Positions 13,798-24,251 of a DNA stretch of 64,000 nt are shown one piece after another (position 1 is the first letter of the stretch; each line of letters starts with the position of its first letter). The stretch lies in the NCBI RefSeq assembly GCF_026341125.1, contig NZ_JAPEOR010000003.1, positions 868,001-932,000 on the forward strand, written 5' to 3'. The translations under genes were made by a program, and so were the position numbers. Under the pieces are notes generated by a model that was not told the DNA's origin, did not search any database, and saw only the letters and a list, made by a program, of their open reading frames with translations. Source of the DNA: Streptomyces sp. NBC_01142 (GTDB lineage: Bacteria; Actinomycetota; Actinomycetes; Streptomycetales; Streptomycetaceae).

Positions 13798-15633
13798 ATG
13801 CACATCCTGCTTGTCGCGAGCGCGTTCAACAGCCTTACGCAGCGAGTCCACGCCGAATTGAGGGACCGCGGGCACAGCGTGGCAGTGGAGCTCGCACTGG
13901 ACGGCACCTCGATAGGGGATGCCGTCCGCCGGCACGAGCCCGACCTCGTTGTGGCCCCCATGCTGAAGACCGCCATCCCCCGCGAGGTGTGGGCGGCACA
14001 CACGTGTCTTGTCGTCCACCCCGGGCCCGTGGGGGACCGCGGACCGTCGTCCCTCGACTGGGCGATCCACGAGCGCGCGACACGGTGGGGCGTGACCGTC
14101 CTGCAGGCCAACGCGGACATGGACGCGGGAGACGTGTGGGCGTCGGTCGCCTGCCCGGTACCGCCGGTGGCCAAGAGCGACCTGTACCGGAACGAGGTGT
14201 CCGACGCCGCGCTGTCGGCGGTGCTGCTGGCCGTTGAGCGATTCGCTGCGGGTACGTACTCCCCCCGGCCGCAGACGGGCGGTCCCGCGGCGGGTGACGG
14301 CCGTGCCCGGCCGTACTTCCGCCAGGTGCTCCGCCGGATCGAGTGGGAGTCGGACTCGACCGAGACGGTTGTCCGCAAGCTGCGCGCCGCCGACTCGCAG
14401 CCGGGTGTGCTGGATGAACTGCTCGGTGAGGAGTGGTATCTCCACGGCGGCCATCCCGAGGACGGGCTGCGCGGCCGTCCGGGCGAGCTGCTGGCCACCA
14501 GGGCAGGCGCGATCTGCCGGGCGACCACCGACGGTGCCGTGTGGATTCCCGAGCTGAGGCCCCGCCGTAGGCCCGGGGAACCCGCCACCTTCAAACTGCC
14601 CGCCGTTCTCGCACTCGCCGGACGGCTGCCCGCCGTGCGTGAGCACCCCGCGCCCCTGCACGCGGACACGGACGCGGACACGGACACGGAAGCGGATACA
14701 CGCACGCACCTTCGCACCTGGTCCGACATCCGCTACCGGGAGGACGGACACGTCGGCTTCCTGTCGTTCTCCTTCCGCGGCGGCGCGATGAGCACGACGC
14801 AGTGCCGCCGACTGCTGGATGCCTACCGGACGGCATGCTCCCGGCCCACCGCGGTCCTGGTTCTGGGCGGCAGCCGGGACTTCTTCTCCAACGGCATCCA
14901 CCTCAACGTGATCGAGGCGGCCCTCGACCCGAGCGCGGAGTCCTGGGCCAACATCAACGCCATGGACGACCTGGTGGAAGCCGTCCTGACGACGACCGAC
15001 CGGCTGGTGGTCTGCGCCATCGGCGGTAACGCCGCCGCGGGCGGAGTAATGCTGGCTCTGGCCGCGGACGAGGTGTGGTGCAGGGCGGGCGCGGTGCTGA
15101 ACCCGCACTACCGCCTGATGGGTCTGTACGGCTCCGAGTACTGGACGTACACGCTGCCCCGCAGAGTGGGCACCGCCGTGGCCGACCGGCTCACCCGGCA
15201 GGCGCTGCCGGTGAGCGCGGTGGCCGGGCAGCGGCTCGGCCTGGTGGACCGGGTGGTGGAGTGCGCACCGCAGTACTTCACCGGCGAGGTCGCTCGGTCG
15301 GCCGCGCAACTGGCTTCCTCGCCCGCGGTGCAGTCACGGATCGCCGCGAAGAAGGCGGAACGGGACCGCCAGGAGGCCGTCAAGCCGCTGGCCGCCTACC
15401 GGGAGGAGGAACTGGCCCGGATGCTGCGTATCTTCTCCGACCCGGGCGAGCCCTACCACGCGCTGCGTCGCGCTTTCGTCCGCAAGGAACCCCCGTCCCG
15501 CACTCCGCAGCACCTCGCGGTGTCCGAGCCCGCAAGGCGGGCGGCGGATCTGCCCCGCCCGGACGGCAACGTCACCGGATTGGCCCTGTGTGACGCGTCA
15601 GAAGGACCCGGCGGCTGTTACCAAGAGAGCTGA
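13798..15633 (+). CDS. hypX: HypX-type CO-ligand synthase for [NiFe]-hydrogenase maturation
   Basis: A 611-residue two-domain protein. Residues 1-280 resemble an N10-formyl-tetrahydrofolate transferase/hydrolase (HILLVASAFNSLTQRV; VVHPGPVGDRGPSSLDWAI; ADMDAGDVWAS). Residues 320-600 resemble an enoyl-CoA hydratase/crotonase (FSFRGGAMST; GGSRDFFSNGIHLNVIEA; GGNAAAGGVMLALAADEV). Known HypX proteins convert the formyl group of formyl-THF, via formyl-CoA, into the active-site CO ligand under aerobic conditions, which suits a hydrogenase working in air. The domains are joined by an acidic DTDADTDTEADT linker encoded by a short repeat. ATG 13798 follows GGGGAGG. It precedes hhyS by 49 bases and is probably the first gene of the operon. 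Confidence 0.9.
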   Translation: MHILLVASAFNSLTQRVHAELRDRGHSVAVELALDGTSIGDAVRRHEPDLVVAPMLKTAIPREVWAAHTCLVVHPGPVGDRGPSSLDWAIHERATRWGVTVLQANADMDAGDVWASVACPVPPVAKSDLYRNEVSDAALSAVLLAVERFAAGTYSPRPQTGGPAAGDGRARPYFRQVLRRIEWESDSTETVVRKLRAADSQPGVLDELLGEEWYLHGGHPEDGLRGRPGELLATRAGAICRATTDGAVWIPELRPRRRPGEPATFKLPAVLALAGRLPAVREHPAPLHADTDADTDTEADTRTHLRTWSDIRYREDGHVGFLSFSFRGGAMSTTQCRRLLDAYRTACSRPTAVLVLGGSRDFFSNGIHLNVIEAALDPSAESWANINAMDDLVEAVLTTTDRLVVCAIGGNAAAGGVMLALAADEVWCRAGAVLNPHYRLMGLYGSEYWTYTLPRRVGTAVADRLTRQALPVSAVAGQRLGLVDRVVECAPQYFTGEVARSAAQLASSPAVQSRIAAKKAERDRQEAVKPLAAYREEELARMLRIFSDPGEPYHALRRAFVRKEPPSRTPQHLAVSEPARRAADLPRPDGNVTGLALCDASEGPGGCYQES

Positions 15634-15682: not shown

Positions 15683-16771
15683 ATGGATGCAGCAACGCCG
15701 ACCACGGCCGAAACGACGGGTGCCTCCGCCGCGGCCGACGAGGACAAGCCCCCGATCCACATCCTCTGGATCAACGCGGGACTGAGCTGCGACGGCGACT
15801 CGGTCGCGCTGACGGCCGCGATGCAGCCGAGCATCGAGGAAATCGTGCTCGGGGTGCTGCCCGGGCTGCCGAAGATCGCTGTCCACTGGCCGCTGATCGA
15901 TTTCGAATGTGGTCCCGTGGGCGGCGCCGACACGTTCATCGAATGGTTCTTCAAGGGGGAACGCGGCGAGATCGATCCCTTCGTCCTGGTCGTCGAGGGG
16001 TCCATCCCCAACGAGTCGATCAAGGCGGAAGGGTACTGGTGCGGCTTCGGCGACAATCCGGAGACCGGTCAGCCGATCACCACCAGCGAATGGATCGACC
16101 GGCTGGCGCCCAAGGCCCTGGCTGTCGTCGCCATCGGGACCTGCGCCACCTACGGCGGCATCCACGCGATGGCAGGAAACCCGACCGGCGCGATGGGTGT
16201 GCCCGACTACCTCGGGTGGGACTGGAAGTCCAAGGCCGGAATTCCCATCGTGTGCGTTCCCGGCTGCCCGATCCAGCCCGACAACTTCTCGGAGACCCTG
16301 ACCTACCTGCTCTATCAGGCAGCGGGGGCCGCCCCGATGATCCCGCTGGACGACAAGCTGCGGCCGACATGGCTGTTCGGCGCCACCGTCCACGAGGGGT
16401 GCGACCGGGCCGGCTACTACGAGCAGGGCCAGTTCGCCCTCACGTACGACTCGCCCAAGTGCTTGGTCAAACTCGGCTGCTGGGGCCCCGTCGTCAAATG
16501 CAATGTGCCCAAACGGGGCTGGATGAACGGCATCGGCGGCTGCCCGAACGTCGGCGGCATCTGCATCGCCTGCACCATGCCCGGCTTCCCCGACAAGTTC
16601 ATGCCGTTCATGGACGAACCGCCCGGCGGCAAGGTGTCCAGCGTGGCCAGCGGAGCGTACGGAGCCGTAGTGCGCACACTCCGGTCGATCACGGCCAGAA
16701 CCGTGGACAAGGAGCCGAAGTGGCGCCACACAGGAGAGCAGCTGACCACCGGATACCGGCCGCCGTGGTGA
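15683..16771 (+). CDS. hhyS: Group 1h (group 5) [NiFe]-hydrogenase small subunit
   Basis: A 362-residue iron-sulfur subunit that carries electrons away from the active site. The N-terminal proximal-cluster motif reads LSCDGDSVAL: Cys36 is present, but the usual second Cys is Asp39, the 3Cys-1Asp ligation known from oxygen-insensitive high-affinity actinobacterial-type enzymes. Further cluster ligands lie in IGTCATYGGI, CVPGCPIQPDN, HEGCDRAGYYEQG, LGCWGPVVKCNVP and the C-terminal GGCPNVGGICIACTMPG. There is no Tat signal or C-terminal anchor, so the enzyme is cytosolic or held to the membrane by partners. ATG 15683 follows GAGGAG. The large-subunit gene follows. Confidence 0.95.
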   Translation: MDAATPTTAETTGASAAADEDKPPIHILWINAGLSCDGDSVALTAAMQPSIEEIVLGVLPGLPKIAVHWPLIDFECGPVGGADTFIEWFFKGERGEIDPFVLVVEGSIPNESIKAEGYWCGFGDNPETGQPITTSEWIDRLAPKALAVVAIGTCATYGGIHAMAGNPTGAMGVPDYLGWDWKSKAGIPIVCVPGCPIQPDNFSETLTYLLYQAAGAAPMIPLDDKLRPTWLFGATVHEGCDRAGYYEQGQFALTYDSPKCLVKLGCWGPVVKCNVPKRGWMNGIGGCPNVGGICIACTMPGFPDKFMPFMDEPPGGKVSSVASGAYGAVVRTLRSITARTVDKEPKWRHTGEQLTTGYRPPW

Positions 16772-16853: not shown

Positions 16854-18638
16854 ATGGCACCGACGACGAAGGCGGCCGGCGACGGCAGCGGCCTGGTGGA
16901 GATGGCCTGGGATCCGATCACCCGGATCGTGGGCAGTCTCGGAATCCACACAAAAATCGACTTCAAGCAGAAGCGGGTCGCGGAGTGCTACAGCACCTCG
17001 TCGGTCTTCCGCGGCTACAGCGTCTTCATGCGCGGCAAGGACCCCCGCGACGCGCACTTCATCACCAGCCGTATCTGCGGTATCTGCGGCGACAACCACG
17101 CCACCTGCTCGGTGTACGCGCAGAACATGGCGTACGGCGTGAAGCCGCCCCATCTCGCGGAATGGATCATCAACCTCGGCGAATCCGCTGAGTACATGTT
17201 CGACCACAACATCTTCCAGGAGAACCTGGTAGGGGTCGACTACTGCGAAAAGATGGTCCGCGAGACCAACCCGGGCGTCCTGGAGCTGGCCGAGCGCACC
17301 GAAGCGCCGCACGCCGGAGACCACGGCTACCGCACGATCGCCGACATCATGCGGTCGCTGAACCCCATCGAGGGCGAGTTCTACCGCGAAGCCCTCCAAG
17401 TGAGCCGCTACACCCGGGAGATGTTCTGTCTGATGGAGGGCCGCCATGTGCACCCCTCCACTCTCTACCCGGGCGGCGTGGGCACCATCGCCTCCGTCCA
17501 GCTCTTCACGGACTACCTCAGCCGCCTCATGCGCTACGTGGAGTTCATGAAGCGCGTCGTTCCCCTGCACGACGACCTGTTCGACTTCTTCTACGAGGCC
17601 CTGCCCGGGTACGAGGAGGTCGGCCGCCGGCGTGTGCTGCTCGGCTGCTGGGGAGCGCTCAACGACCCCGAGTACTGCGACTTCACGTACGCCAACATGA
17701 CCGACTGGGGACGGCGGATGTTCGTCACCCCCGGCGTCATCGTCGACGGCAAGCTGGTCACCAACGACCTTACGGAGATCAACCTCGGCATCCGGATCCT
17801 GCTGGGCAGCTCGTACTACGACGACTGGGAGGGCCAGGAGCAGTTCGTCACCCGCGACCCGCTCGGCAACCCGGTCGATCCTCGGCATCCGTGGAACCAG
17901 CACACGATCCCCGCCCCCCAGAAGCGGGACTTCAACGGCAAGTACAGCTGGGTGATGTCTCCCCGCTGGTTCGACGGCAAGGACCACCTGGCGCTGGACA
18001 CCGGCGGCGGCCCCATCGCCCGCCTGTGGTCCACCGCGCTGTCCGGGCTCGTCGACGTCGGCTACGTCAAGGCCACCGGCCACAGCGTCGTCATCAACCT
18101 GCCGCGCACGATGACCAAGCCCGAGACCACCTTCGAGTGGAAGATCCCGCGCTGGAGCAACGCACTGGAGCGCAACCGGGCCCGCACCTACTTCCAGGCC
18201 TACACCGCCGCCGTAGCGCTGCACTTCGCGGAGAAGGGGCTGGCGGAGGTCCGTGCCGGACGCACCCAGACCTGGGAGAAGTTCGAGGTTCCGGACGAGA
18301 GCATCGGCGTCGGTTTCACGGAGGCCGTCCGCGGTGTGCTCTCGCACCACATGGTCATCCGCGACGGCAAGATCGCCAACTACCACCCCTACCCGCCGAC
18401 GCCGTGGAACGCCAGTACCCGCGACTCGTTCGGAACACCCGGCCCGTACGAGGACGCCGTACAGAACACGCCGATCTTCGAGGAGAACCCGCCGGAGAAC
18501 TTCAAGGGCATCGACATCATGCGCGCAGTGCGCAGCTTCGACCCCTGTCTGCCGTGCGGCGTCCACATGTACGTGGGCGGGGGCAAGACCGTGCAGAAGA
18601 TGCATGTGCCGACCGGCCTGAGCGGCCTGGCCGGATGA
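16854..18638 (+). CDS. hhyL: Group 1h (group 5) [NiFe]-hydrogenase large subunit
   Basis: A 594-residue catalytic subunit that holds the NiFe(CN)2CO centre and oxidises H2. Both nickel-ligand motifs are present: SRICGICGDNHATC (Cys75, Cys78) and DPCLPCGVH (Cys565, Cys568). A 23-residue tail follows the final His571, which would be the usual cleavage point for the maturation endopeptidase encoded at 22054. ATG 16854 is chosen because it begins the conserved region soon afterwards (EMAWDPITRIVG); GTG 16812 is an in-frame alternative, and neither has a strong ribosome site. The stop overlaps the next start by four bases. Group 1h enzymes scavenge atmospheric H2 during dormancy. Confidence 0.95.
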   Translation: MAPTTKAAGDGSGLVEMAWDPITRIVGSLGIHTKIDFKQKRVAECYSTSSVFRGYSVFMRGKDPRDAHFITSRICGICGDNHATCSVYAQNMAYGVKPPHLAEWIINLGESAEYMFDHNIFQENLVGVDYCEKMVRETNPGVLELAERTEAPHAGDHGYRTIADIMRSLNPIEGEFYREALQVSRYTREMFCLMEGRHVHPSTLYPGGVGTIASVQLFTDYLSRLMRYVEFMKRVVPLHDDLFDFFYEALPGYEEVGRRRVLLGCWGALNDPEYCDFTYANMTDWGRRMFVTPGVIVDGKLVTNDLTEINLGIRILLGSSYYDDWEGQEQFVTRDPLGNPVDPRHPWNQHTIPAPQKRDFNGKYSWVMSPRWFDGKDHLALDTGGGPIARLWSTALSGLVDVGYVKATGHSVVINLPRTMTKPETTFEWKIPRWSNALERNRARTYFQAYTAAVALHFAEKGLAEVRAGRTQTWEKFEVPDESIGVGFTEAVRGVLSHHMVIRDGKIANYHPYPPTPWNASTRDSFGTPGPYEDAVQNTPIFEENPPENFKGIDIMRAVRSFDPCLPCGVHMYVGGGKTVQKMHVPTGLSGLAG

Positions 18639-19258
18639 GCGCGGCAGCCGCCGCCACCGCTCCGCCCGTCGGCGGGGCGGCGAGGGCGGTCAACGCGGAG
18701 GAGGCCGGGCGCCGCGTCGAGGAGGTGCTCGACCGCCTGGCAGCCACTGGTGACCAAGAGGTGTGCGCGGCGGCCGAGGAACTGGTGCGGGTCCTGATGG
18801 ACTTCTACGGCGCCGGACTGGCCCGCATCGTCACCCTGCTGGACGCCCCCGCGGCCAAGCGGCCCGGGGGCGGAACCCTGGCGGGACTGCTCGGCGACGA
18901 ACTGGTGTCGAGCCTGCTGGTCCTGCACGACGTACACCCCGAGGACACCGCCACCCGCATCGCGCGCGCCCTGGACAGCGTGCGCAGCCACCCCGCCGAG
19001 GTGGTGGACTTCGACGACGCCACCGGCACGCTGCGCCTGCGGTCCTCCGGTGGCGAGGGCGAGGGCTGCGGCTGCCCGAGCACCGGCGCGACGGCCCAGC
19101 AGGCAGTCGAGGACGCCCTGTCCTGCTTCGCGCCGGAGGTGACCACAGTGGAACTGGAACCGGCCGCCACCTCCCGGGAGCCGGCTCTGCTCCAGATCGG
19201 AACCCGTCCGCCCACCGGCACCGCCGCCCCCGGACCGGCCTCGGCGAAGGCGCTGTGA
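18635..19258 (+). CDS. NifU-like C-terminal domain protein of the hydrogenase operon
   Basis: A 207-residue protein. The first 120 residues are helical and Ala/Glu-rich with no recognised fold. Residues 125-180 resemble the NifU/Nfu scaffold domain (DFDDATGTLRLRSSGGEGEGC, then PSTGATAQQAVEDALSCFAP and EVTTVELE). The usual Cys-x-x-Cys is replaced by Cys145-Gly-Cys147-Pro, so cluster binding may differ from normal Nfu. Its place after hhyL, with a 4-base ATGA overlap, suggests a dedicated role in loading or repairing iron-sulfur clusters in HhyS, or in electron transfer. This is inference from position and domain. Confidence 0.75.
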   Translation: MSAAAAATAPPVGGAARAVNAEEAGRRVEEVLDRLAATGDQEVCAAAEELVRVLMDFYGAGLARIVTLLDAPAAKRPGGGTLAGLLGDELVSSLLVLHDVHPEDTATRIARALDSVRSHPAEVVDFDDATGTLRLRSSGGEGEGCGCPSTGATAQQAVEDALSCFAPEVTTVELEPAATSREPALLQIGTRPPTGTAAPGPASAKAL

Positions 19259-19923
19259 GCGCGCCTCAGGCGTGGCCGCAGCGGCCGGGGCCCGCCCCGG
19301 AACTCCGGGGTCTGCGCCGGTTCACGGCACCCCGCCCGCCGCAACAGGAACGGTGCGAACTGTGCGGGGTGCCGGTGTCCGACGGCAGCCACCGGCATCT
19401 CGTGGACACCGAAAAGCGTTCGCTGGCGTGCGCCTGCACCCCGTGTGCCCTGCTGTTCGCGGAGCCGGGCGCCGCCGGCGGCCGCTTCCGGACGGTTCCG
19501 GACCGCTACCTGGCCGACCCCGGCCACCATCTCGAAGACAGCGCCTGGGAACTCCTGCAGATCCCGGTCAGCGTCGCCTTCTTCTTCCGCAACTCCGCGC
19601 AGGACCGGCTGGTCGCGCTCTACCCCAGCCCGGCCGGCGCGACCGAGAGCGAACTCGAGCCGTCCACCTGGCAGTCCGTACTCGGCGGCAGCCGCCTGGC
19701 AGGCCTGCTCGAACCCGACGTGGAGGCACTGCTGCTGCGCCGCTCGGACGGCCGGGCCGAGTGCTATCTGGTGCCCATCGACATCTGTTACGAGCTGGTG
19801 GGCCGAATGCGCCTGCTGTGGCAGGGATTTGACGGCGGGGCAGAGGCGCGGACCGATCTGCAGGCGTTCTTCGAGCACGTCGGGCGACGCGCCCAAGCAC
19901 CCGGGGAGGCGGGCCGGCCGTGA
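19255..19923 (+). CDS. DUF5947-type Cys-rich protein of the hydrogenase operon
   Basis: A 222-residue soluble protein. A cysteine/histidine cluster lies near the N-terminus: Cys34-x2-Cys37, His46 and His48, then Cys59, Cys61 and Cys64 (ERCELCGVPV, SHRHLVDTE, ACACTPCALLF). This could bind zinc or an iron-sulfur cluster. The rest has a mixed alpha/beta look (WELLQIPVSVAFFFRNS, YLVPIDICYELVGRMRLLW). I assign it to the DUF5947 family, known to me only as a conserved companion of actinobacterial group 1h hydrogenases. GTG 19255 overlaps the previous stop. Role unproven; an electron carrier or assembly factor is possible. Confidence 0.7.
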   Translation: MSAPQAWPQRPGPAPELRGLRRFTAPRPPQQERCELCGVPVSDGSHRHLVDTEKRSLACACTPCALLFAEPGAAGGRFRTVPDRYLADPGHHLEDSAWELLQIPVSVAFFFRNSAQDRLVALYPSPAGATESELEPSTWQSVLGGSRLAGLLEPDVEALLLRRSDGRAECYLVPIDICYELVGRMRLLWQGFDGGAEARTDLQAFFEHVGRRAQAPGEAGRP

Positions 19924-20621
19924 CAGAGTTCTCCTTCACCTGCACCGGTGTACGCGCCGACCGGTACGCCGCCGGACCCACCCTGGTCTTCCGGCTGCGC
20001 ATCACCGCGTCCCAAGACGTTCGGGTGCACGCCCTCGCCCTGCGCTGCCAGATCCGTATCGAACCGGCCCGGCGCAGCTACGACGCCCCGGAGGCCGAAC
20101 GGCTGGCGGATCTGTTCGGTGAGCGCTCACGCTGGGGCAGCACGCTCCAGCCGGTGCAGTTCGCACAGGTCTCGCTCATGGTCCCCAGCTTCACCGGAGA
20201 GACGGAGACCGATCTCGTGGTGCCCTGCACCTACGACATGGACGTCGCCGCGAGCCGGTACTTCGGCGCACTCTCGGACGGAGACGTGCCGCTGCTCATG
20301 CTCTTCTCCGGTACGGCGTTCACCGGAGCCGGCGGATTCCGTGTCGAGCCGGTGCCCTGGGACCGGGAGGCCTCCTACCGGATGCCGGTGGAGGTGTGGC
20401 AGGAGATGGTCGAGCAGCACTTTCCGGGCTGCGGCTGGATCCGGCTGCCCCGCGACACCATGGACTCGCTGCTCGCCTTCCGCTCACAAAGGGCGCTGCC
20501 GTCCTGGGAGGCGACCGTCCGCGCCCTCCTGGACGCGGCGGCCCCGCCGGACCCCCAGCCGCCGGCCCGCGCTCTGGCCGGTGCCCTGCGGCCGCGTGTC
20601 ACCGAGAGGACGGCGCCGTGA
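19920..20621 (+). CDS. DUF6084-type protein of the hydrogenase operon
   Basis: A 233-residue soluble protein starting at GTG 19920, overlapping the stop of the previous gene. The sequence has a beta-sandwich look: alternating hydrophobic strands (FSFTCTGVRAD, LVFRLRITASQDV, VHALALRCQIRIEPA, FAQVSLMVPSF, DLVVPCTYDMDV), then a helical C-terminal 60 residues. No catalytic motif, signal peptide or membrane segment. I recognise it as the DUF6084 type found with group 1h hydrogenases. Its position between the Cys-rich protein and the 479-residue unknown suggests the three act together, perhaps as a structural or docking complex. Confidence 0.65.
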   Translation: MTEFSFTCTGVRADRYAAGPTLVFRLRITASQDVRVHALALRCQIRIEPARRSYDAPEAERLADLFGERSRWGSTLQPVQFAQVSLMVPSFTGETETDLVVPCTYDMDVAASRYFGALSDGDVPLLMLFSGTAFTGAGGFRVEPVPWDREASYRMPVEVWQEMVEQHFPGCGWIRLPRDTMDSLLAFRSQRALPSWEATVRALLDAAAPPDPQPPARALAGALRPRVTERTAP

Positions 20622-22057
20622 CGACAGTCGCGTTCACTGCGGAGACGGAAGCCCGGTTCGCCACCGCCCGGCAGGTTGCCGACGCCGTCCTCTTCGAGGG
20701 CTACGTGCTGTACCCCTACCGGGCCTCGGCGGCCAAGAACCGGTTGCGCTGGCAGTTCGGGGTGCTCGTACCGCCTGCCTGGGGCGCCGAGTGCGAAGAA
20801 CACGACTTCCAGCACACCGAATGCCTGATGGAACCGAAGGCGGGCGCGACGCTGGCGGTCGAGCTGCGGTTTCTGCACGCCCGCCGGAAGACCGTGCAAC
20901 AGGCCCGCCAGGACGGCACCTTCGAAACCGTGCCCGAACTGCACCTCCACGACCGCGTCCTGGTTCCCTGGGACGAGGGCGCCGAAGAGCGCGTCGAGGT
21001 GTCCACCACCGTGGCCGGGCTGACCGGGGACGGTGTCAGCGTCCCCTTCACCCGCCCCGCCCGTGAGGAGACCGAGCCCGTCCTCGACGCGGACGGCCGG
21101 CTCGTGGGCCGCCTGGTCCGCCGCTGTGAGGAGATCAACGGCGTCGTACGGCTGTCCGCGCAGGAACTCGAAGGCCCCTACCGGGCGCTGCGGTTGACCG
21201 CGGTTGTGGAGAACACCAGCACCTGGACGCCGGACGGCGGCGGCGCCGACCGCGACGCGGCACTGCCGCACTCGCTGGTCGCCACCCACCTCCTGCTGTG
21301 CCTCAGCGCCGGCTCGTTTCTTTCGATGACCGACCCGCCCGAGTGGGCCAAGGTCTCGGTCGCCTCCTGCCGCAACCTGCACACCTGGCCGGTACTGGCC
21401 GGTGAACCCGGCCGCGCGGACCTGGTGCTGTCCTCCCCGATCATTCTGGAGGACCACCCGGCCATCGCCCCCGAGAGCCCGGGGGCGCTCTACGACGCCA
21501 CCGAGATCGACGAGATCCTCGCGCTGCGCACGGCGGCCCTCACCGACCAGGAGAAGCGCGAAGCGCGCGGGACCGACGCGAAGGCGGCCGCCGTGATCGA
21601 CCTGGCCGACTCGATGCCCCCCGAGGTACTGGAGCGCCTGCACGGAGCGGTGCGGGCCCTTCGGGAGGTCACCGAACCCGGCCCGTCGTCCCGTCAGGGC
21701 TCGCCGGACGACCTTGAGCTGTCCGACGGACACGATGTCGTCCGGCCGGACACCCCGTGGTGGGATCCGGCCGGTGACGCCACCGTGGACCCGGCCCGCG
21801 ACCAGGTCCTCGTCGACGGCCGGCAGGTGGGCCCGGGCAGCCGCGTGCTGCTGCAACCGGGCCTGCGCCGGAGCGACGCACAGGACCTGTTCCTGCGGGG
21901 CCGCAGCGCGCAGGTCGAAGCCGTACTGCACGATGTGGACGGGGGAGTGCACCTGGCGGTGACCGTCGAGGGTGACCCCGGGGCCGACATCCGCCGCGAG
22001 CAGGGACGCTTCCTTTACTTCCAGCCCGACGAAGTCGCACTCCTGGAGGACGTATGA
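20618..22057 (+). CDS. Conserved-context protein of unknown function in the hydrogenase operon
   Basis: A 479-residue soluble protein with no family I can name. GTG 20618 overlaps the previous stop and its own stop overlaps the endopeptidase start. The N-terminal 100 residues include YVLYPYRASAAKNRLRWQFG and a Cys/His patch (GAECEEHDFQHTECLME). The middle contains HSLVATHLLLCLSAGSFLSM and DPPEWAKVSVASCRNLHTWP. The C-terminus has a linker followed by a small beta-rich domain. No nucleotide-binding loop or redox motif is obvious. Its strict embedding in the operon argues for a dedicated hydrogenase role. Confidence 0.75.
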   Translation: MTTVAFTAETEARFATARQVADAVLFEGYVLYPYRASAAKNRLRWQFGVLVPPAWGAECEEHDFQHTECLMEPKAGATLAVELRFLHARRKTVQQARQDGTFETVPELHLHDRVLVPWDEGAEERVEVSTTVAGLTGDGVSVPFTRPAREETEPVLDADGRLVGRLVRRCEEINGVVRLSAQELEGPYRALRLTAVVENTSTWTPDGGGADRDAALPHSLVATHLLLCLSAGSFLSMTDPPEWAKVSVASCRNLHTWPVLAGEPGRADLVLSSPIILEDHPAIAPESPGALYDATEIDEILALRTAALTDQEKREARGTDAKAAAVIDLADSMPPEVLERLHGAVRALREVTEPGPSSRQGSPDDLELSDGHDVVRPDTPWWDPAGDATVDPARDQVLVDGRQVGPGSRVLLQPGLRRSDAQDLFLRGRSAQVEAVLHDVDGGVHLAVTVEGDPGADIRREQGRFLYFQPDEVALLEDV

Positions 22058-22602
22058 GCCTTCCCCCGCACGAGAGCGCGCGGACTCTGGTCGCCGGCGT
22101 GGGCAACATCTTTCTCGGCGACGACGGCTTCGGCGTCGAGACGGTGCGCCGGCTGGCCGAGGAACGGCTGCCCGAGCACGTCGAGGTCGTGGACATCGGC
22201 GTACGGGGCGTACACCTGGCGTACCAGCTACTGGACGGATACGACACGCTCGTCCTGGTCGACGCCACCGCACGCGGCGGCGAGCCCGGAACGCTGTATC
22301 TGATCGACGCCGGCACGCCCGGCGGAATCGAACCGCAGGACGCAGTGCTCGACGGCCACCGTATGTCCCCCGACGCGGTCCTGGCACTGCTGGACACCCT
22401 GTGCGCCGGCACCGGCGGGATCCCGCCCCGGCGCAGGCTGGTGGTGGGATGCGAACCCGCCTGTGTCGAGGAGGGAATCGGTATCAGCCCGCCGGTGGCC
22501 GCCGCAGTACCGGAAGCCGTACGACTGGTCCTGGGCATTGTGCGGGACGGCGAGCAGGAAGCGCCCGCGCAGCGGGCTGCGGCCGGACCGGCCGCGAAGT
22601 GA
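22054..22602 (+). CDS. [NiFe]-hydrogenase maturation endopeptidase (HyaD/HupD family)
   Basis: A 182-residue endopeptidase that trims the C-terminus of the large subunit once the active site is assembled. The family signature GVGNIFLGDDGFGVETVRRL (residues 15-34) supplies one nickel-sensing acidic residue. A second acidic site is in VVDIGVRGVHLAY and the conserved His in LDGHRMSPD. The substrate is presumably HhyL after His571 (inferred). ATG 22054 overlaps the previous stop by four bases. The last 25 residues are an Ala/Glu-rich extension without conservation clues. Confidence 0.9.
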   Translation: MSLPPHESARTLVAGVGNIFLGDDGFGVETVRRLAEERLPEHVEVVDIGVRGVHLAYQLLDGYDTLVLVDATARGGEPGTLYLIDAGTPGGIEPQDAVLDGHRMSPDAVLALLDTLCAGTGGIPPRRRLVVGCEPACVEEGIGISPPVAAAVPEAVRLVLGIVRDGEQEAPAQRAAAGPAAK

Positions 22603-22958: not shown

Positions 22959-23348
22959 ATGCACGAGATGTCCATCGCGCTGGCTGTCGTCGGCCAGGTG
23001 GAGGAGGCGGCCGCACACGCCGGCGGCGTCACCGCGGTCACGTCCGTACGACTCCAGGTGGGCGAGCTGGCCGGAGTCGTCCCCGACGCACTGTCCTTCT
23101 GCTTCGAACTGGCCTGCGCCGGGACCGTGCTGGAAGGCGCCGAACTGGTCGCGGAACCTGTGCCGGGCCGTGCCCGCTGCGAGCCGTGCGCGGACGAATG
23201 GGCGGTCGGCATGCCCCCCCAACTGTGCTGCCCCCTGTGCGGGGAGGCGACTGCAGAGCTGCTCTCGGGCCGTGAGCTGCAGATCGTCAGCGTGCGCTGG
23301 GAAGACGGCCCGGCGCACACCCGCGAACCGATCTCCGAGGAGTGCTGA
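22959..23348 (+). CDS. hypA: HypA nickel metallochaperone
   Basis: A 129-residue protein that delivers nickel to the hydrogenase large subunit with HypB. The N-terminal MHEMSIA gives His2, the essential nickel ligand, which fixes the start at ATG 22959 (GGAG 4 bases upstream) against longer in-frame starts. The zinc site is formed by CEPC and CPLC (residues about 75-100) in the sequence CEPCADEW...CCPLCGEATAEL. An extended C-terminal tail (HTREPISEEC) makes it somewhat longer than the usual ~113 residues. It leads the hypABFCDE series, hypB starting 3 bases after its stop. Confidence 0.95.
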   Translation: MHEMSIALAVVGQVEEAAAHAGGVTAVTSVRLQVGELAGVVPDALSFCFELACAGTVLEGAELVAEPVPGRARCEPCADEWAVGMPPQLCCPLCGEATAELLSGRELQIVSVRWEDGPAHTREPISEEC

Positions 23349-23351
23349 ACC

Positions 23352-24251
23352 ATGTGCCGTGTGGTCGACCTGCAGCAGGCGGTACTCGCCAAGAACGATG
23401 AGACCGCGCAAACGCTGCGCGCCGAACTGGCAGCCCGCGGTACCACGGTGGTCAACCTCCTCTCCAGCCCCGGCAGCGGGAAGACAGCCCTGCTGGAACG
23501 CGAACTGCTCCTGGCACGTGAGAGGGGGGTGCCGGTCGCCGCCCTGACCGCCGACCTTGCCACCGAGAACGACGCCGTGCGACTGGCCCGCTCCGGGGTG
23601 CCGGTCAAGCAGGTGCTCACCGACGGGCTGTGCCACCTCGAGGCCGGGATGCTGGGCCGGCACCTGGCGGGGTGGCTGCCCGAAGGCACCCGACTGCTGT
23701 TCGTGGAGAACGTCGGCAACCTGGTCTGCCCGGCCTCCTACGACCTCGGCGAGGCCCTGAGGGTCGTGCTCGCGTCGGTGACCGAGGGGGAGGACAAGCC
23801 GCTGAAGTACCCCACTGCCTTCGGTCTGGCACATCTGGTGGTGGTCACCAAGACCGACATCGCGGGTGCCGTCGAGTTCGACGAAGCGGCGTTCCGGGCG
23901 AATGTCGCGCAGGTCAACCCCGGGGTGGAGGTGCTCCTGACCTCCGCGCGCGCAGGTCAGGGAGCGGGTGCGCTGCTCGAGCGGGCGATGGCGGTGGCGG
24001 ACGGCGGCGCGGTCCACGCGCCGGTCATGGCCCGGCAGCAGCACGATCACCACCACCACGGTCACCACCACCACGAGGACGGTCACCACGAGGACGGTCA
24101 CGACGAGGACGGTCACCACCGGGACCGTCACGACAGGGACGGTCACGACGGGGACGGTACGCACACTCACGTACATCCCCACCCGGACGAGTCCCGGTCC
24201 CGGACCTTCACGGCCACCGCCCCCGGCGCTGTGGCCCAGACTCGCTCGTGA
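23352..24251 (+). CDS. hypB: HypB GTPase with C-terminal histidine-rich tail
   Basis: A 299-residue GTPase for nickel insertion. The P-loop is SPGSGKT (residues 39-45), switch-region TADLATENDAVRL follows and the specificity motif VVTKTDIAG lies near residue 165. The metal site at the dimer interface is indicated by DGLCHLEAGML. From about residue 230 there is a run rich in His with Asp/Gly (HDHHHHGHHHH, then repeated HHEDG-type units) ending at about residue 277, probably a nickel store. In well-known HypB proteins this tract sits at the N-terminus, so its C-terminal position is unusual. The stop overlaps hypF. Confidence 0.95.
   Translation: MCRVVDLQQAVLAKNDETAQTLRAELAARGTTVVNLLSSPGSGKTALLERELLLARERGVPVAALTADLATENDAVRLARSGVPVKQVLTDGLCHLEAGMLGRHLAGWLPEGTRLLFVENVGNLVCPASYDLGEALRVVLASVTEGEDKPLKYPTAFGLAHLVVVTKTDIAGAVEFDEAAFRANVAQVNPGVEVLLTSARAGQGAGALLERAMAVADGGAVHAPVMARQQHDHHHHGHHHHEDGHHEDGHDEDGHHRDRHDRDGHDGDGTHTHVHPHPDESRSRTFTATAPGAVAQTRS

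Follow-up and report, generated by a model that had tools for sequence, protein, structure and literature searches.

A conserved accessory gene set and a candidate anchor microprotein, DUF6893, in a Streptomyces group 1h [NiFe]-hydrogenase operon

The window analyzed here, a stretch of 64,000 nucleotides of Streptomyces sp. NBC_01142 DNA (contig NZ_JAPEOR010000003.1, positions 868,001 to 932,000), holds a Streptomyces group 1h (Hhy) [NiFe]-hydrogenase operon, in which four genes lie between the large subunit gene hhyL and the gene of the maturation protease: a NifU-like gene, a DUF5947 gene, a DUF6084 gene and a gene for a 479-residue protein here called U479. Comparison with other genomes shows that these four genes are the normal accessory set of group 1h hydrogenases, inherited with the enzyme across phyla. 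We give a probability of roughly one half to the reading that the four genes serve to build the enzyme and put it in place, not to carry electrons, and that a 36-residue microprotein of the DUF6893 family, encoded 3′ of the protease, anchors HhyS and HhyL (HhySL). The + strand order is hypX-like, hhyS, hhyL, NifU-like, DUF5947, DUF6084, U479, protease, DUF6893 microprotein and hypA/B/F/C/D/E-like, with the central genes as follows.

15683..16771, + strand: hhyS, group 1h small subunit, without a strong hydrophobic stretch (match to 5aa5_A, HofK, E 1e-163; hydropathy)
16854..18638, + strand: hhyL, group 1h large subunit, with L1 motif TSRICGICGDNH and L2 motif SFDPCLPCGVH (match to 5aa5_C, HofG, 1098 bits)
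18635..19258, + strand: NifU-like protein of truncated HhyE type, 207 residues; CxC replaces CxxC and the C-terminal four-cysteine domain is absent
19255..19923, + strand: DUF5947 protein, 222 residues, C-x2-C..HxH..C-x-C-x2-C (Pfam and alignment)
19920..20621, + strand: DUF6084 protein, 233 residues, without a PDB relative by sequence (Pfam)
20618..22057, + strand: U479, 479 residues, predicted N-terminal DrmA-like beta domain and C-terminal PetP/SH3-like domain
22054..22602, + strand: hydrogenase maturation protease, HycI/HupD type, 182 residues
22613..22723, + strand: DUF6893 microprotein, 36 residues, one hydrophobic segment and a basic tail, PDLRRYLRMRRM

HhyL is 77% identical to HofG and carries both group 1h motifs, as these are given in PMC5364354. 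The genome measures 10.1 Mb, its nearest named protein relatives are from Streptomyces, and 21 of the other genomes compared belong to the same genus. All five junctions from hhyL to the protease are 4-nucleotide overlaps (ATGA or GTGA), which bears out the earlier description of four genes, each overlapping its neighbor by four bases. The small subunit had been described as lacking a membrane anchor, and this holds for HhyS, whose most hydrophobic 19 residues average 1.55 with no strong hydrophobic stretch; no cytochrome b gene lies between hhyS and hypE, the two genes at which the search stopped.

We then followed the accessory genes through 246 Actinomycetes genomes, calling hhyL as group 1h where the match covered no fewer than about 390 residues with an identity of at least 71%. 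Group 1h hhyL is present in 47 genomes, with short fragments only in two more. DUF5947 occurs in 48 genomes, all 47 hhyL genomes and one (G199) with an orphan NifU-like/DUF5947 pair, and U479 occurs in 53, all 47 and six others, of which three (G141, G016, G161) have adjoining hyp genes and three (G109, G122, G224) have none within the fetched stretch. DUF6084 is found in 35 genomes, all among the 47, and adjoins hhyL in 32; in the 15 genomes with a distant hhyL (71–73% identity) it is absent at the locus, with a copy elsewhere in three. NifU-like proteins are matched in 57 genomes, which besides the 47 and G199 include nine with weaker matches; HucE of a Huc operon accounts for one of the nine. 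The proposed linkage to hhyL thus stands, the families occurring rarely in the other 199 genomes (DUF5947 in one, U479 in six, DUF6084 in none, NifU-like in ten). A search of 72,556 plasmid records turned up the same 12 for hhyL (E 1e-60), for DUF5947 and for U479; they represent nine distinct strains or names, three of them present twice. Scanning with an hhyL alignment gave 80 loci from several phyla, these being the best 80 of 575 confirmed candidates ranked by likeness to HofG and not a random sample. Of 114 loci, 82 count as full, with hhyL flanked by 4.5 kb or more on its upstream side and 6 kb or more on its downstream side, the other 32 having insufficient flank, and these 82 come from Actinomycetota, Pseudomonadota, Acidobacteriota, Verrucomicrobiota, Chloroflexota and Planctomycetota. 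U479 is the most constant partner, present in all 82, followed by the NifU-like protein and DUF5947 (80 each), the protease (79), the microprotein (75) and DUF6084 (70), and all 12 full loci without DUF6084 are Actinomycetota. The presence of the accessory genes in most or all of the full group 1h loci across six phyla makes them a normal part of the class.

The block order of the window recurs in Methylocystis parvus, in one mycobacterial plasmid and in C. necator H16, in which hofK, hofG and PHG066–PHG070 have similar gene sizes, with a U479 homologue of 476 residues and a microprotein 3′ of the protease. The four open reading frames of unknown function PHG066–069 had already been noted there, hofK and hofG being PHG064–065 (PMC4377017), and PMC13332983 describes hypothetical proteins within a cluster conserved among R. 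equi, M. smegmatis and C. necator. In the parts of the literature covered by our search no paper names DUF5947 or DUF6893, and a single paper, on the aurodox cluster, came up for DUF6084. The novelty of the four genes is smaller than first claimed, and the overlooked microprotein is the most interesting item.

The protease gene lies directly 3′ of U479 in 92 of 104 loci, also where the pair is situated upstream of hhyS, and one locus (L148) has a single open-frame U479::HycI fusion. The exact 4-nucleotide overlap of U479 and protease is kept in 72 of the 92 relatives in which the protease directly follows, which is more than chance; at the remaining block junctions this overlap is rarer (26 to 73 of 85 to 101 relatives). 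U479 usually abutting the protease, together with the one fusion, suggests that U479 acts in hydrogenase assembly or maturation. The protein has no Pfam family, no NCBIfam model and no PADLOC match, and a profile search against the PDB gave nothing at E 1. The two-domain description rests on a Foldseek comparison of the predicted structure, from which we used the DrmA rows (N-terminal) and the PetP and SH3-like rows (C-terminal), most other rows being long chance alignments; unlike DrmA of DISARM, the modeled 479 residues lack the helicase parts. In many Acidobacteriota and Chloroflexota loci (L087, L093, L097, L106, L115 and others) our own gene calls give a shorter U479 or two pieces of about 350 and 105 residues, a split consistent with two domains. 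Outside hydrogenase loci, U479-like proteins were seen in L045, L046 and L051 near Sir2 and GNAT genes (both by Pfam in L045, Sir2 only in L051, by likeness in L046); L045 and L046 have a DUF6084 gene there as well. U479 and DUF6084 were compared as possible paralogues and rejected as such at a profile comparison probability below 1%, as were DUF5947 and DUF6084, also below 1%. DUF6084 itself is assigned by Pfam at E 5e-98, its profile finding nothing in the PDB at E 1, and PADLOC has no match for it.

The description of all four proteins as uncharacterized does not hold for the NifU-like protein; the roles of the other three we infer. The NifU-like protein matches Pfam NifU at E 5e-4 (20.5 bits, under the 27-bit cut-off), its family profile matches NifU-like PDB entries, and it is encoded directly 3′ of hhyL with helical and NifU-like domains; by position and domain it is the counterpart of M. 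smegmatis HhyE (MSMEG_2718, next to MSMEG_2717), likewise downstream of hhyL. In PMC6883350, deletion of hhyE in M. smegmatis is reported to lower H2 oxidation as deletion of hhyL does, with Hhy activity abolished, and the Hhy band on nitroblue tetrazolium (NBT) staining is lost, so that an artificial acceptor gives no rescue; its authors prefer electron transfer for HhyE, name assembly factor or scaffold as alternatives, and mention truncated HhyE forms. The related Huc enzyme, as purified, contains HucL, HucS and HucM, and HucE was not found in the main text of that paper (PMC10017518).

The NifU-like domain of the window protein has CGC (CxC) instead of CxxC, and the C-terminal domain with two CxxC motifs is absent. 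We counted cysteines in 109 of 113 NifU-like rows, leaving out L037, L062, L069 and L125. Long HhyE-type forms (more than 270 residues) have an extra C-terminal four-cysteine domain and the NifU CxxC in 21 of 21 cases, the short forms have CxxC in 9 of 88, and 17 of the 109 proteins, including those of Paraburkholderia, Methylocystis and Marinobacter, are free of cysteine. Seven of these 17 were re-read and proved complete frames, each with a DUF5947 frame close behind; in cysteine-free L043 and its neighbor L042 (one cysteine) the NifU part is absent and only the helical part is left. The C. necator protein has a single cysteine outside the NifU motif, unlike the CxC of the window, and in the mycobacterial plasmid locus L073 and in L038 and L039 (taken as mycobacterial), which share the whole block with the window, HhyE is long with CxxC and the C-terminal four-cysteine domain, whereas that of the window is short with CxC. 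On an hhyL tree (FastTree, 47 of 111 branches well supported) the CxxC state changes at least 10 times and the long/short state 11 times, and CxxC and length are coupled in about five of eight independent pairs and never opposite (sign test p 0.03–0.13). Over 20 diverse forms the best-conserved residues are L95, H101, P102 and R108, all in the helical part, and P167. This comparison shows repeated loss from HhyE-type proteins of the iron–sulfur (Fe-S) motifs, sites that are evolutionarily expendable across many lineages.

Two genomes are without HhyE and DUF5947 altogether. Among 240 Verrucomicrobiota genomes three have hhyL, and two of these, G291 (locus L162) and G401 (L163), are Methylacidiphilum-like, with 2.48 and 2.20 Mb and a locus G+C of 39%. 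Downstream of hhyL they have hypB and a gene read as a nickel transporter, the arrangement described for strain SolV (PMC5364354). Both loci share hhyS-hhyL, DUF6084, U479, protease and microprotein with the window and differ in having the accessory genes on the opposite strand. Neither genome has DUF5947 anywhere or a match to the HhyE-family profile, the same HhyE search being positive in the controls G000, G003 and G246, and if the Methylacidiphilum identification is right, neither protein is required for the chemistry. PMC7174314 reports that SolV oxidizes sub-atmospheric H2, and that its group 1h subunits have no transmembrane helix yet the enzyme is membrane-associated, an association that bears on affinity, the isolated enzyme having lower affinity; its authors invoke an unknown redox partner. 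The repeated loss of Fe-S motifs, taken together with the genomes free of HhyE and DUF5947, weakens a pure electron-transfer role.

DUF5947 (Pfam E 2e-73) has C34, C37, H46, H48, C59, C61 and C64 invariant in 45 aligned homologues, so the cluster of five Cys and two His seen originally is real. The fixed-spacing metal pattern is matched by 101 of 103 DUF5947 genes, the other two having the same ligands with a longer spacer (read by eye). Rubredoxin sites have four Cys in two CxxC knuckles and no His, unlike the DUF5947 site, C-x2-C..HxH..C-x-C-x2-C; residues 31–81 possibly form a treble-clef-like metal site. Foldseek gave no match at E 0.001, a null that does not show a new fold, and the three matches of the profile to the PDB (E 0.25–0.84) are not trusted. 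The idea that DUF5947 is the detached C-terminal half of HhyE was rejected, as several loci have a long four-cysteine HhyE plus a separate DUF5947 gene. A conserved protein of 68–72 residues is encoded 3′ of DUF5947 in L044 (11394–11600), L033, L058 and L074, mostly loci without DUF6084; the L044 copy has no Pfam family.

The microprotein begins with an ATG 10 nucleotides after the protease stop codon, with GGAG upstream, and belongs to DUF6893 (PF21833; 49.7 bits against a cut-off of 24.6). Its top 19-residue hydropathy of 1.74 is exceeded in the window operon by HypX (1.94) and HypE (1.83), which are soluble enzymes; it is probably membrane-bound and is the clearest membrane-peptide candidate in this operon. 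Hydropathy is above 1.6 in 91 of 102 family matches (median 2.14), compared to 250 of 11,515 other small open reading frames. The tail, of RYLRIRxM type, has a median net charge of +3, with RY at −8/−7 in 96 of the 102 microproteins and 23 of the 11,515 other frames, and a terminal Met in 99 and 150, respectively (unselected). In a set of 93 from which only rows ending in Met were kept, so that the terminal Met is there by selection, Arg is at −8 in 92 and Tyr at −7 in 91 with variable third codon positions, and this retention of R and Y while third positions vary marks a selected protein. Raw, uncorrected codon differences, synonymous to non-synonymous, are 111:99 in seven Burkholderiales loci and 65:32 in Methylocystis, reflecting purifying selection that is not extreme.

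Homologues of the microprotein were found in 95 of 115 hhyL-like loci. The 20 others include two that fall outside group 1h (L062, L069) and 13 truncated at a contig end or by the limits of the fetched stretch (for L059 and L160 the microprotein is on another contig); in the remaining five, L032, L033, L035, L110 and L141, it was not found though the region is present. The profile was built from these same loci, which makes its E-values optimistic. The independent Pfam DUF6893 model matches 41 of the 246 genomes: 38 of the 47 hhyL genomes, G082, in which the copy adjoins a hydrogenase protease gene and hhyL is absent, and two doubtful ones; it gives no score to the L162 copy, queried without its first four residues. 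The position shifts between lineages: the window and Burkholderiales have the microprotein 3′ of the protease, L073 has it between U479 and the protease, several Verrucomicrobiota loci have it between the protease and hhyS, and in L162 it directly precedes hhyS. None of the gene tables in four annotated plasmid records lists the microprotein, though these tables describe themselves as incomplete; NCBIfam has no model for the three microproteins tried, and no title or abstract opening found in our literature search names a microprotein anchor of group 1h. A second DUF6893 copy in G085, a member of the 47 (C27; L158 6323–6442), beside response-regulator-like genes, has extra residues after the usual terminal Met.

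In the mechanism we propose, the accessory genes would build and position the enzyme rather than transfer electrons. U479 and the protease would together assemble or mature the subunits, the HhyE-type protein would be an assembly factor acting through its conserved helical N-terminal domain, with Fe-S sites dispensable in many lineages, DUF5947 would be a metal-stabilized partner, and DUF6084 would be helpful yet dispensable. HhySL would be held at the membrane by the 36-residue DUF6893 protein, its hydrophobic segment in the bilayer and its basic RYLRIRxM tail on the cytosolic side binding the enzyme, and the anchored enzyme could then pass electrons directly to the quinone pool. CydX and CcoQ are single-helix small subunits of respiratory enzymes, of 30–40 residues and encoded beside the large subunits; DUF6893 resembles them in length, in having one hydrophobic segment and in gene position. 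As judged from sequence, DUF6893 is the best candidate for the group 1h membrane anchor. Membrane docking, one of the roles put forward in the original prediction, is plausible, its natural candidate being the microprotein that had been missed and not the four genes. The fuller proposal, with DUF6893 as anchor (possibly quinone-docking) subunit in at least six phyla, HhyE and DUF5947 as assembly factors and HhyS giving its electrons directly to quinone, is tentative, and we regard it as somewhat doubtful.

Several observations weigh against our preferred reading. The roles in assembly or anchoring that we infer for U479, DUF5947, DUF6084 and the microprotein come from sequence comparison. A stricter six-frame test (E 1e-3) finds the microprotein in 75 of the 82 full loci and misses seven, of which L034, L036, L074 and L088 matched at E 3e-4 to 8e-3 in a wider search, L033 shows a look-alike on visual inspection, L032 has a decayed operon (stop in U479, no protease) and L035 has none. 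Outside the 82, no microprotein was found in L110 and L141, although both contain U479 and the protease, and in L087 and L104 the match is several kb upstream of hhyS. PMC7174314 and PMC4377017 call the C. necator enzyme cytoplasmic, and PMC7174314 gives it a low affinity, though its operon has the microprotein; the SolV cluster encodes two other, hypothetical membrane proteins (PMC7174314). Of the 12 loci without U479–protease adjacency, eight are explained by neither contig end nor fusion, and the U479::HycI fusion is one case from a metagenome assembly. The PetP-like C-terminal domain predicted for U479 could dock to a membrane complex, PetP being a cytochrome b6f subunit, and the invariant seven-ligand site of DUF5947 would also suit a redox carrier. 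In native gels HhyE is reported to migrate together with HhyL and HhyS (PMC6883350), as would suit a subunit. Close homologues of the window U479 (82%) and NifU-like protein (68%, with CxC) are recorded under the name S. avermitilis, a species whose spores oxidize tropospheric H2 (PMC4767420); in one of these searches scores were computed only for the candidates with the most shared words. All 120 of the nearest NifU-like relatives listed, one of them named S. avermitilis, retain CxC; with CxC constant in the lineage of the window, the protein may have a metal role there. The controlled absence of HhyE from G291 and G401 strengthens the case for assembly and anchoring, and the misses in L110 and L141 weaken it, about equally.

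The role proposed originally, and in print for HhyE and PHG067, is that of an electron-transfer module, in which HhyE and/or DUF5947 accept electrons from HhyS and deliver them to menaquinone. It draws on the requirement for HhyE and its co-migration with HhyLS (PMC6883350), on the invariant DUF5947 ligands, on the long HhyE forms with NifU CxxC and four C-terminal Cys, and on PHG067, which PMC6883350 names as the acceptor proposed for R. eutropha and which, as PHG066–069 follow hofK and hofG, is the DUF5947 gene by order. We consider this module unlikely in view of the missing rescue by an artificial acceptor (PMC6883350), the Fe-S motif losses and the two genomes without HhyE and DUF5947. 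Were U479 a docking adaptor, its PetP-like domain linking the hydrogenase to a respiratory membrane complex, the microprotein would have another job, which we find rather improbable.

That the microprotein is an unrelated small membrane peptide, hitchhiking with the operon, seems improbable too: the DUF6893 copy of G085:C27 lies away from hydrogenase genes and some group 1h loci have no match, but the family is found in 38 of 47 group 1h genomes versus one convincing match in the other 199 (G082, beside a hydrogenase protease), and the microprotein varies in operon position between phyla yet remains in or near the operon. An oxygen-protection or regulatory module, the former also proposed originally, is very improbable and found no support in this analysis. 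Group 1h enzymes are described as oxygen-insensitive, the C. necator enzyme being so called in a review, and the accessory genes are specific to them; yet hhyS and hhyL match 5AA5, the solved C. necator structure, and the four accessory profiles do not, and neither Pfam nor NCBIfam assigns a redox-enzyme or regulator domain to any of the four.

Further genes lie on either side of this block; here and in the compared loci, genes were called with a simple in-house caller.

13798..15633, + strand: hypX-like, 611 residues, which we take to be hypX without a family search (own gene call)
22959..23348, + strand: hypA-like (own gene call; named from the matching order in an annotated S. fungicidicus plasmid)
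23352..24251, + strand: hypB-like, His-rich C-terminus (named from the same plasmid order)
24248..26650, + strand: hypF-like (named from the same plasmid order)
26725..27045, + strand: hypC-like (named from the same plasmid order)
27042..28166, + strand: hypD-like (named from the same plasmid order)
28237..29232, + strand: hypE-like, presumably hypE from sequence and order

The HypB-like protein terminates in a long tail rich in His and Asp (window 24020–24190), a possible nickel store. In S. avermitilis a hypX beside the hydrogenase operon is reported to be monocistronic (PMC4767420). Two hhyL lineages exist within the genus of the window, at 90–97% and 71–73% identity to the window, with different operon order (G057, G089, G153, G163), which suggests horizontal transfer, and decaying-looking hhy loci were also seen there: L032/G101 (stop inside U479, protease absent), G039:C7 (hhyL fragment) and L037/G199 (the orphan NifU-like/DUF5947 pair). 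Acidobacterial group 1h loci (L098 and, by gene order, L088–L090, L092, L093, L096, L099 and L104) have a second, stand-alone HhyS-like protein. In L098 (4193–7574) the genes of a PAS histidine kinase and a LuxR-type response regulator come after it, directly 5′ of hhyS, possibly an H2-sensing system without large subunit.

Soil bacteria oxidizing atmospheric H2 are its main sink (PMC6883350), and how a hydrogenase without membrane helix attaches to the membrane, and what accepts its electrons, is left open in the available parts of PMC6883350, PMC7174314 and PMC13332983. In the present comparison U479 emerges as the most constant partner, the Fe-S ligands of the favored acceptor prove expendable in evolution and a candidate anchor comes to light, which makes the question of attachment and electron route testable by single-gene deletions.

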